A stretch of DNA of 64,000 bases from Candidatus Electryonea clarkiae (GTDB lineage: Bacteria; Electryoneota; Electryoneia; Electryoneales; Electryoneaceae), in assembly GCA_030765455.1 (NCBI GenBank), contig JAVCCM010000108.1:1-64000 (forward strand), written 5' to 3'. Below, piece by piece: positions 3,477-50,681 of the stretch; position 1 is the first letter of the stretch; every line of letters begins with the position of its first letter. Position numbers and translations under genes: made by a program. A model generated the notes under the pieces. It searched no databases, was not told the origin of the DNA, and saw only the letters and a list, made by a program, of their open reading frames with translations.

Positions 3477-6191
3477 GTGAATATACCAAAACAATACGAC
3501 CCAAAAGCAGTCGAGCCCAAGTGGAGTGAATGGTGGCTCGAAAACAACATTTTCAAAAGTGATCCTAATCCTGATAAGGATCCCTTTGTAATATTGATGC
3601 CTCCGCCAAATGTTACCGGTGTGCTTCATATGGGGCATGCTTTACAGGACACAATTCAAGACACCCTTATTCGTTATTACCGGATGCTTGGATATGAGGC
3701 GCACTGGCAGCCCGGAAAAGATCATGCCGGCATTGCTACCCAGACTGTAGTTGAGAAGGAACTGGCAAAGGCTGGCAAACCTGACCGCGTATCGCTTGGC
3801 AGGGAAAAGTTTATTGAAGAGGTATGGGAACTTGTAAAGAGGAACCGGGACACTATCACCAAACAGAAAATGGCGTTGGGTGATTCCGCCGACTGGACGA
3901 GAGAACGATTTACCTTAGATGAAGGACTAAGCCGAGCTGTCAGGGAAGTATTTGTAAAATTGTATGAAGAAGGATTGATCTATAGAGGTCCTTATATAGT
4001 TAACTGGTCGCCCGCTCTCCAGTCAGCAATATCCGACGAGGAAGTGGATCACAAGGATGAAGAAGGAAATCTCTGGTATATCCGTTATCCGGGAACTGAT
4101 GGGGGAGAGGGTGTTGTAGTCGCCACTACCCGACCGGAAACCATGCTTGGTGACGTTGCAGTTATGGTGCATCCTGATGACGAAAGATACAAAGAGTTGA
4201 TCGGGAAAGAGGTTGAGCTGCCTTTGACAGGACGGAATATTCCCGTTATTGCTGATGATTACGTTGATCGTGAATTTGGAACGGGTGTTGTGAAAGTAAC
4301 TCCTGCCCATGATCCTAACGACTTTGAGGTCGGACGTCGTCACAATCTTCCCATGCCTGTCATTCTTGATACATCAGCGAAGATTAAAGCACCTGCTCCT
4401 GATGTTTATATCGGTTTGGATCGTTTTGATGCCAGGGAAACTATAATAAAAGATCTGGAAGCCCTGAACTTGCTGGTCAAAACCGAGAAATACCAACATT
4501 CAGTGGGATATTGTCAGCGAAGCAAAGTCCCGATTGAACCATATCTTTCAACACAATGGTTCATGAAGATGAAGCCACTGGCAGAACCTGCATTGGATGC
4601 TGTCAGGGATGGGAGAATAAAATTTGTCCCAGGGAGATGGGCGAAAGTATATTTCCATTGGCTTGAAAATATCCGGGACTGGTGTATCAGCCGTCAGCTT
4701 TGGTGGGGTCATCGTATCCCAGCATGGCATTGTGATGAGTGTGGTCATGTAACCGTTCCCCGCATCGATCCCGATAAATGCGAAAAATGCGGTTCGGAAA
4801 AAATCAGGAGGGATGAAGATGTCCTTGATACCTGGTTCTCAAGCTGGCTATGGCCCTTCTCTACATTAGGCTGGCCTGATGATACAGAGGAAATGAAGTA
4901 TTATCATCCGACTGACGTACTGGTCAGCGGTTATGACATTATCTTCTTCTGGATTGCAAGAATGATAATGGCGGATTTGCATTTCACTGGTGATATACCC
5001 TTCAAAACTGTTTATATCACGGGGATGATAAAGGACAAGCAGGGTCGATGGATGTCAAAATCACTGGGGAATGGTATCGATCCCCTGGAAATGATTGACA
5101 AATACGGCGCTGATGCGGTTCGTTACAGCCTAGTTGTTCTTACCACCGAAGGTCAGGACATTAACCTCGATCCCACCCGTTTTGAGATGGGAAGAAATTT
5201 TGCGAATAAAATCTGGAATGCTTTTCGTTTTTTAACTACATATAATCTTAACAGTTCAGAGTCCAAGCTTCAGCTTGTAGAGAAAAGTTCAGAGTCCAAG
5301 CTTCAGCTTGAAGAAAAAAGTTCAGAGTTCAAGCTTCAGCTTGTTGATCAATGGATCGAGGGAAGGTTTATCGAGACAACTCGAGAAGTAGAACAAAAGT
5401 TGAAACGTTATCGTCTGAACGAGGCGCTCCTCGCAATATACCGTTTCACTTGGAATGATTTCTGTGACTGGTACATCGAAGCGATAAAACCAAGAATATC
5501 AAAAGATGCAATTGATCAAGATCAGGCTGACGCTACATTAAGGTTCGCCTACAAAATGATGGAACGAATAATCAGGCTGCTTCATCCATTCATGCCGTTT
5601 ATGACTGAAGAAATCTACCAGGCTTTACCTCAAGTCGAAGGTTTGAATATTCCGGAAGACAGACCGGTTTCTATTGCGATTGCTGAATATCCTATTGGTA
5701 AAGATTTGAAGGCTGACACAATAGCAGTTGAAGAATTTTCATATATTAAGGAGCTAATAAGCTCTGTACGGACAGTTCGCGGCGAATTAAAAGTGCCGCC
5801 ATCCAAACAAGCAAAGCTACTCGTGAATACTGATGATTTACATAATAATCTTATAGAACGTGAATGGAATATGATTTCCCGACTCGCTAAACTCGAGAGT
5901 TGGGATACCGTTGAAGAAAAACCGTCTCAGTCGGCAAGTACTGTAGTTGCGGGTCGCAGGATATTTATTCCTATTGCTGATTTGATCGATATTGATGTTG
6001 AAATAAAACGGGTAGAAAAGGAGATCAATAAGCTCGAAGGGCATTTTGCAGGTATAGAAAAGAAACTGGCAAATAAAAAATTCGTTAATAATGCACCTGA
6101 AGCAGTAGTAAATCGAGAAAAGGAAAAAATGGCTGATCTTGAAATGAAACTTGATAAACTGAAAAATCATTTAAAGGATTTGTCAAACTAA
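3477..6191 (+). CDS. valS: Valine--tRNA ligase
   Basis: Class I aminoacyl-tRNA synthetase, 904 residues, charging tRNA-Val in the cytoplasm. The HIGH-type motif is PPNVTGVLHMGHA (about 42-54) and the KMSKS-type is RWMSKS (about 524-529). The editing domain lies between (ATTRPETMLGDVAV). A four-Cys zinc site (CDEC, CEKC) precedes DEDVLDTWFSS. The C-terminal coiled-coil arm of ValRS is present from about residue 838. The oddity is residues 593-625, three copies of an 11-residue repeat encoded by perfect 33-base units, at the junction of the catalytic core and anticodon-binding domain. The frame stays open through them, so the enzyme is probably functional. The start is a GTG. It is followed after 15 bases by the DUF4139 gene. 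Confidence 0.97.
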   Translation: MNIPKQYDPKAVEPKWSEWWLENNIFKSDPNPDKDPFVILMPPPNVTGVLHMGHALQDTIQDTLIRYYRMLGYEAHWQPGKDHAGIATQTVVEKELAKAGKPDRVSLGREKFIEEVWELVKRNRDTITKQKMALGDSADWTRERFTLDEGLSRAVREVFVKLYEEGLIYRGPYIVNWSPALQSAISDEEVDHKDEEGNLWYIRYPGTDGGEGVVVATTRPETMLGDVAVMVHPDDERYKELIGKEVELPLTGRNIPVIADDYVDREFGTGVVKVTPAHDPNDFEVGRRHNLPMPVILDTSAKIKAPAPDVYIGLDRFDARETIIKDLEALNLLVKTEKYQHSVGYCQRSKVPIEPYLSTQWFMKMKPLAEPALDAVRDGRIKFVPGRWAKVYFHWLENIRDWCISRQLWWGHRIPAWHCDECGHVTVPRIDPDKCEKCGSEKIRRDEDVLDTWFSSWLWPFSTLGWPDDTEEMKYYHPTDVLVSGYDIIFFWIARMIMADLHFTGDIPFKTVYITGMIKDKQGRWMSKSLGNGIDPLEMIDKYGADAVRYSLVVLTTEGQDINLDPTRFEMGRNFANKIWNAFRFLTTYNLNSSESKLQLVEKSSESKLQLEEKSSEFKLQLVDQWIEGRFIETTREVEQKLKRYRLNEALLAIYRFTWNDFCDWYIEAIKPRISKDAIDQDQADATLRFAYKMMERIIRLLHPFMPFMTEEIYQALPQVEGLNIPEDRPVSIAIAEYPIGKDLKADTIAVEEFSYIKELISSVRTVRGELKVPPSKQAKLLVNTDDLHNNLIEREWNMISRLAKLESWDTVEEKPSQSASTVVAGRRIFIPIADLIDIDVEIKRVEKEINKLEGHFAGIEKKLANKKFVNNAPEAVVNREKEKMADLEMKLDKLKNHLKDLSN
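5253..5351 (+). repeat. Three tandem 33-base units inside valS
   Basis: Units start at 5253, 5286 and 5319. Each begins AGTTCAGAGTCCAAGC or a one-base variant and continues TTCAGCTTG. Each contains the small palindrome CAAGCT-TC-AGCTTG. Translation gives SSESKLQLVEK, SSESKLQLEEK and SSEFKLQLVDQ. The period is a multiple of three and the reading frame is kept. No other copy was seen in this window. Confidence 0.9.
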
Positions 6192-49505: not shown

Positions 49506-50681
49506 TTATTCATCGATTCCTTCATCAGTTGGCATGTATGGAATGCTACTATTTTTAACACGGACATTAGCGATCTCAGACACATCAATTTCAGCGTACA
49601 ACATTAATTCATCCAAATAATCCAATACAGATTTTCCGCTCGGTATTCTTTCGAGATCAATAGATACAACTATATGGCCGGTTATTTCTAATGGCAATTC
49701 TTCTTCTATTGCACGATAAAGGCGATTCCTAAATTCTGCTATTTCAATCATATCATTAAAATCAGGAGTATCAGAGTACAAAGGCGATTCAGTTGATTTA
49801 TAATGCACCTTGGCATCCATTTGAAAATCAAACGGAATAATGAATACAACACCTCCCATATGCTCAATATACTTAAAATCCAAATTAATATCTGAGGGTA
49901 TCGTGTATGAAAATAACATCGCTTGATGATTGTCTGATTTAATTAATGGATCAGTTATTCCATATCCAAATAGAGCTATATATAACTTCTCTGAGGCTAT
50001 ATCTTTTATTTGATATTTATTTCTTTTAATCGTATTTATGATCGAATCCAAATTAATTTCAGCATCGAATTTTTCTAAAACTGATGCAATTGTTTCGGAT
50101 CTGATAAAATCTTCAAGATTATCAAAAAAGCTTATATTTGATATGCCTTTAAATGCTTTCTGCAATTGGGAGTCGTTGGTAACAAAAACGAGGGTATCTA
50201 AAGTATTCGCCAATTCAATGGCATTTAAATATATGAAAGCGTCAGGAAAATCTTCTCTAAACTTTTGTTTTCTAAATGGTGCTTTCCCTGTGAAATACAT
50301 CTCGGACATTTTTAAACCATGATGATTCTCAATCGGGCGAATCATTGCACCAATTTCATCGCACCAAGAATCGAAATCATGCTCTACCCACTCAAGTATT
50401 TCTGGAGTAAGAGAGTTGAAAACTAATTTTTGACCTTCTAACTCGTCTTTTAATTTATTAGAAAGAGGTTGCCTGGTAAGATTATTTAAATTTGTTGCGA
50501 TAGCCCTCAATGATTTGGAGTATTCTTCTTGACGATTTGTGAGGAATTCATATTTAACATAATAGGGAATGTGTAATACCAGCTGATGAGCGATTCCCAA
50601 TTTTACAAGCATTTGAAAGGGTGCAGATTTCCTTTTTGGGTCTTGCCTGAAAATAGTTGAATCTAATATAACGTGTATCAT
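49506..50681 (-). CDS. PIN-like domain protein with extra C-terminal domain
   Basis: A 391-residue protein. The N-terminal PIN-like ribonuclease domain has four well-placed acids: Asp7 (HVILDSTIF), Glu45 (YVKYEFLTN), Asp147 (FPDAFIYLN) and Asp170 (FVTNDSQL), the layout of PIN/DUF4935-type nucleases. A helical insert lies between (about 50-140). Residues about 200-391 form an unknown domain with strands (MGGVVFIIPFDFQMDAKVHY; LPLEITGHIVVSIDLERI). The start ATG is at 50681. It is larger than VapC toxins and has no VapB-like partner. A defence or RNA-decay role is possible but unproven. Confidence 0.65.
   Translation of the reverse strand: MIHVILDSTIFRQDPKRKSAPFQMLVKLGIAHQLVLHIPYYVKYEFLTNRQEEYSKSLRAIATNLNNLTRQPLSNKLKDELEGQKLVFNSLTPEILEWVEHDFDSWCDEIGAMIRPIENHHGLKMSEMYFTGKAPFRKQKFREDFPDAFIYLNAIELANTLDTLVFVTNDSQLQKAFKGISNISFFDNLEDFIRSETIASVLEKFDAEINLDSIINTIKRNKYQIKDIASEKLYIALFGYGITDPLIKSDNHQAMLFSYTIPSDINLDFKYIEHMGGVVFIIPFDFQMDAKVHYKSTESPLYSDTPDFNDMIEIAEFRNRLYRAIEEELPLEITGHIVVSIDLERIPSGKSVLDYLDELMLYAEIDVSEIANVRVKNSSIPYMPTDEGIDE

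Follow-up and report, generated by a model that had tools for sequence, protein, structure and literature searches.

Probable in-frame insertion of a REP-type palindromic array in the valyl-tRNA synthetase gene of Candidatus Electryonea clarkiae

REP and REPIN sequences, described together with RAYT (TnpA_REP) in Escherichia coli and Pseudomonas fluorescens, are short tag-hairpin units that lie mostly between genes, often form inverted doublets and are associated with a Y1 (HUH) transposase gene flanked by the repeat (PMC3116915, PMC8266576). GTAG and CGTC REPs have also been found within ORFs, where they are in frame, single or grouped, and presumed to occupy linkers and loops, many of them in replication and repair genes (PMC3733652). 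Other palindromes that reach coding sequences include the Rickettsia palindromic elements (RPEs), of 100-150 bp and often located inside ORFs (PMC3767692, PMC10969869), and the PARCELs, which are palindromic, amphipathic, tandem coding repeats whose motif spans 25 residues and which occur in ORFs of no assigned function (PMC2996958). In the literature collection that was searched, nothing relevant turned up on palindromic repeats within valyl-tRNA synthetase (ValRS). To the known intragenic REPs (PMC3733652) and the RPEs of IleRS and PheRS beta, the locus described here adds a REP-type family whose tag is not GTAG, and a new target gene.

The locus is valS, located at 3477-6191 (+ strand) of the window, that is, of the whole stretch of 64,000 nucleotides analyzed, which belongs to a draft assembly of 5.76 Mb in 184 contigs (G000). 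Its reading frame is open and intact over 904 amino acids, and the product qualifies as a valine--tRNA ligase by its equivalog score (1101-1218 bits against the NCBIfam valS models) and by the presence of both the catalytic and the anticodon-binding domains. The first-pass annotation had reported three near-identical 33-base units in frame at 5253-5351, each with a palindrome, and both statements hold: Tandem Repeats Finder delimits the array at 5253-5344 (period 33, 93% matches), the units differ from each other by 2, 4 and 5 bases, and the 14-mer CAAGCTTCAGCTTG starts at 5264, 5297 and 5330, folding in all three as CAAGC-TTCA-GCTTG (5-bp stem, TTCA loop). Taken with the tag that precedes it, each hairpin makes up a unit of 24 nt, and the three direct units, all on the + strand, are found at 5254-5277 (tag GTTCAGAGTC, hairpin 5264-5277), 5287-5310 (tag GTTCAGAGTC, hairpin 5297-5310) and 5320-5343 (tag GTTCAGAGTT, hairpin 5330-5343), separated by spacer 1 (TAGAGAAAA, 5278-5286, +) and spacer 2 (AAGAAAAAA, 5311-5319, +). 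The final three codons of the third repeat as first reported (GTTGATCAA, VDQ) align with the conserved host VEDRW/IEDRW of relatives; the tail at 5344-5351 (+), where VDQWIEGR starts, is thus host sequence outside the repeat unit, and the foreign stretch runs from about 5253 to 5343 on the + strand, encoding residues 593-622 (SSESKLQLVEKSSESKLQLEEKSSEFKLQL), with its outer edges placed by the alignment of relatives. According to Pfam, tRNA-synt_1 ends at residue 565 and Anticodon_1 starts at 624, which puts the array at the boundary of the catalytic and anticodon-binding domains, as had been proposed. Misassembly is common at repeats and could, in a draft of 184 contigs, have created extra copies of the unit or a misjoin; a mere duplication error in assembly is hard to reconcile with the differences among the units, the spacers differ as well, the frame is kept and both flanks align to valS, so that an artefact is exceedingly improbable.

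The length of the linker between these domains was measured by pattern in 45 ValRS sequences, that of G020 (32 residues) being read by eye from the alignment. The median is 23 residues and nearly all linkers have 18-30, the outliers being G000 (38), G023 (41) and G002 (61), the last of which shows no obvious repeat. The same-family relatives with a readable valS lack the insert, and four of them (G001, G003, G005 and G006) have short linkers of 20-22 residues, unrelated in sequence. The claim that the repeat adds 33 residues is overstated: the net gain over these four is 16-18 residues against 30 encoded by the repeat, implying that part of the native linker was lost or replaced. The nearest relatives of G000 belong to other genera (ValRS 66-70% identical), and a scan of genome contigs returned no close named relative, the best match being Tobar14m-G34 with 51%. 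A recent insertion or expansion of the array, also part of the original proposal, is plausible and undated. Recombination at the linker, considered on account of a step in identity between G000 and G002 (81% against 55%), was rejected since the step is common to all relatives.

In the AlphaFold2 model of the protein (mean pLDDT 88.6) residues 595-604 form the sole segment with pLDDT below 50, blocks of 10 residues over 591-620 average 49-62, and a short, weak helix is predicted at 606-616; in the ValRS of Thermus thermophilus (1gax) the corresponding linker is shorter. The repeat peptide most likely behaves as a floppy tether. The helix, the intact frame and the amphipathic character of the peptide (SSESKLQLVEK)n would also agree with an old structural part of ValRS, namely an 11-residue helical repeat under protein selection whose palindrome is a by-product of codon use. 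The low model confidence at the insert and the short, unrelated linkers of same-family relatives speak against this explanation, which is very improbable and is largely refuted by the fact that the DNA unit, with both its tag and its hairpin, recurs outside genes in about 50 clusters.

These copies were found by searching G000 itself, as the first-pass annotation had anticipated in suggesting that the unit might also lie between genes. The 14-mer CAAGCTTCAGCTTG occurs 15 times exactly in the 5.76 Mb and 31 times when one mismatch is tolerated, compared with 2 for the reversed pattern, an abundance that is beyond chance; the tag alone (GTTYAGAGTYCA) is found at 51 places versus 6 for its reversed control, and the 24-nt pattern (up to one mismatch) at 105 versus 0. 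Once tag and hairpin matches are merged, about 50 clusters result, among which, by reading-frame calls, valS is the sole one deep within a conserved gene, the remainder being intergenic or overlapping just short or edge frames. The unit consists of a 10-nt tag, GTTYAGAGTY, and the hairpin CANNC-TTCA-GNNTG. A perfect 5-bp stem is present in 42 of the 51 units selected by tag alone, whereas shuffling of the 3' arms (10,000 trials) yielded 12.2 on average and 22 at most. Stem types include CAACC, CACAC, CAAGC, CACGC and CAATC with a loop constant at TTCA or TTTA, and the stems covary across units. A wider set of 117 units contains loci obtained in part via hairpin patterns, for which reason the evidence on the stem is drawn from the tag-selected count. 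Neighboring units are convergent in 33 cases and divergent in 7, which corresponds to the inverted doublets of REPINs (PMC3116915). A different repeat of the same genome, present in three copies, also opens with CAAGCTTTAGCTTG and continues with CTCCTCTTYGCACCCGGCTTCAGCC.

In the broad sense, the family resembles REP/REPIN sequences: a short tag-plus-hairpin palindrome in many copies, mostly intergenic, often arranged in inverted doublets and accompanied by a repeat-flanked Y1 (HUH) gene. It differs from the REPs of E. coli and Pseudomonas in that GTTYAGAGTY, conserved in the collected units, takes the place of the GTAG that stands 5' of the palindrome in the GTAG superfamily, and in its hairpin, which has a stem of just 5 bp and a TTCA loop that is conserved. 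The valS copy departs in addition from usual REPINs, as it comprises three direct units within a gene and no inverted doublet. Its in-frame placement is shared with the intragenic GTAG and CGTC REPs, from which it differs in tag and target and in that, in other genera, unrelated palindromes occupy the same ValRS linker. With PARCELs it shares the palindromic, amphipathic, tandem coding character, although the valS unit is a 24-nt intergenic repeat that lies in a housekeeping enzyme.

The likeness to Rickettsia elements drawn initially does not stand in the strict sense. An element of the RPE class, specialized for the in-frame invasion of genes, would account for a palindrome in frame within an essential gene, and RPE-7 is known from the PheRS beta and IleRS of Rickettsia (PMC3767692). 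However, the G000 unit has 24 nt, not 100-150 bp, carries a tag, forms REP-like inverted pairs, is linked to Y1 transposases and, unlike the ORF-frequent RPEs, is nearly always intergenic, just one of its roughly 50 clusters lying clearly inside a gene; nor was any clear intragenic copy found in the 59 clusters read in G026 or the 21 in G031. Membership of the RPE class is on these grounds quite improbable. Two candidate intragenic copies in G026 were dismissed on reading their surroundings, one lying upstream of an apparent carA-carB remnant and the other just ahead of a start codon. In G031, where the pattern has 56 matches, one REP unit (C103:7948-7971) is located about 22 bases past the point at which the match to valS ends.

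A search of the whole of G000 with PF01797 (Y1_Tnp), made independently of the repeat, gave 24 hits. Two of these genes, at C67:51510-52109 and C173:68956-69552, are 81% alike and have unit arrays on both sides, those around the C67 gene including the CAAGC stem type found in valS; a third, on C46, has a repeat copy on one side. Flanking of two genes on both sides is very unlikely to have arisen by chance according to a rough estimate of about 1% per 1-kb flank, based on about 50 clusters in 5.76 Mb. Both flanked genes, on C67 and C173, encode proteins that exceed the PF01797 cut-off and whose sole NCBIfam match is REP_Tyr_transpos (NF047646), with scores of 66.8 and 72.3 that remain below the cut-off of 80, a point that counts against the preferred reading given below; the C46 protein reaches 97.1. 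G000 holds a RAYT-type Y1 gene flanked by its own repeat, as in REP/REPIN systems in the broad sense. Homologues of the C67 protein are associated with hairpins in other genomes: in G020, which belongs to another family of the phylum, the gene (60%) has the same tag-hairpin behind it, with GTTTAGAGTTCA and GTTCAGAGTTCA hairpins, and in G002 a tandem run of CGTGC-TTCA-GCACG hairpins stands ahead of the homologue (54%, one stop). On contig C48 of G002, about eight 30-bp hairpin units in tandem stand before a RAYT homologue with an internal stop, possibly a decayed REPtron. RAYT-like Y1 (HUH) transposases of the same genome are the most likely agents of the spread of the repeat family.

The distribution of the 24-nt pattern (up to one mismatch) was surveyed in 39 genomes of the phylum. 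It is present in G000 (105), G026 (317), G031 (56), G033 (8), G020 (5), G023 (1) and G029 (1) and absent in the other 32, including all six other members of the family of G000; the carriers besides G000 all belong to one other family, f2. Such patchiness suggests horizontal arrival or repeated loss of the repeat, and for the G000 lineage a horizontal arrival of the system is presumed.

The preferred reading, to which a probability of roughly 0.86 is assigned, is that the valS insert represents three direct REP-type units (GTTYAGAGTY tag, 5-bp hairpin with TTCA loop) of a family probably spread by RAYT-like Y1 transposases, which entered the ValRS tether, were duplicated in tandem and were filtered by selection. 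Under this reading a CAAGC-type unit, single or in a small group, would have inserted into the tether, variable in length, that joins the catalytic domain to the anticodon-binding domain, presumably by means of a Y1 transposase; tandem duplication at a period of 33 nt, supported by the likeness of spacers 1 and 2, would then have given three units, and in an essential enzyme selection would have retained those forms that keep the frame and are free of stops within a flexible loop. The insertion event itself, the order of these steps and near-neutrality for the enzyme are inferred. Against the preferred reading stand the direct orientation of the valS units, where the usual G000 copies are inverted pairs, the net gain below the 30 residues encoded by the repeat, and the tag other than GTAG. 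The direct 33-nt period and units that differ by 2-5 bases would also be expected of a plain coding minisatellite, generated by slippage of host sequence with no mobile family involved. Slippage may be the source of the copy number of three, but it does not explain why the tag-hairpin recurs at about 49 further sites and beside transposase genes; as a full explanation the minisatellite is refuted by the dispersed copies and is barely credible. The array is accordingly classed as a rare intragenic REP of a RAYT-type system, one of about 50 clusters, and the original idea of a mobile palindrome tolerated by a protein appears sound, with the frame kept and the unit dispersed between genes. A transposase-linked extragenic palindrome would here have become part of the protein sequence of an essential enzyme, and it can be tied to candidate mobilizing genes, and a repeat family without the GTAG tag offers a new setting for the study of substrate recognition by RAYTs.

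Other palindromes were detected in ValRS loops of the phylum. The linker of G023 contains IASEAKQSQGDVRSPQRF, encoded by an 'attgcgagcgaagcgaagcaatc' ('attgcgag') repeat that G023 matches at 17 places and G000 at 15. That of G020 contains a perfect palindrome, ACAGAAGGCACAGAG...CTCTGTGCCTTCTGT, which in a search of G020 was not found outside its own valS, where a diverged copy lies in the editing-domain loop. In G012 and G031, G/C-rich inverted repeats are present in the editing-domain loop before VATTRPET, and G017 has a similar proline-rich insert at this place; ETPPSPPLLSRGGLRGG is an example from this set. The odds are about even that the two surface loops, the interdomain tether (G000, G023) and the editing-domain loop (G012, G031, perhaps G017), with both used in G020, are recurrent landing sites for unrelated palindromes in the phylum; in two genera (G000 and G023) the linker insert is dispersed in its own genome. 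If ValRS loops do take up unrelated palindromes repeatedly, they would constitute a natural record of the protein sites at which mobile DNA is tolerated, and would serve as a test case for the conversion of non-coding repeats into protein segments.

Searches of the window with Rfam and ARAGORN gave no matches. The KMSKS motif of its ValRS reads WMSKS (residue 525), as it does in 17 of 41 other aligned ValRS, including every aligned relative of families f1, f2, f5, f6 and f7. A second tandem array was detected in the window by Tandem Repeats Finder at 49998-50039, with a period of 20 and 2.2 copies.
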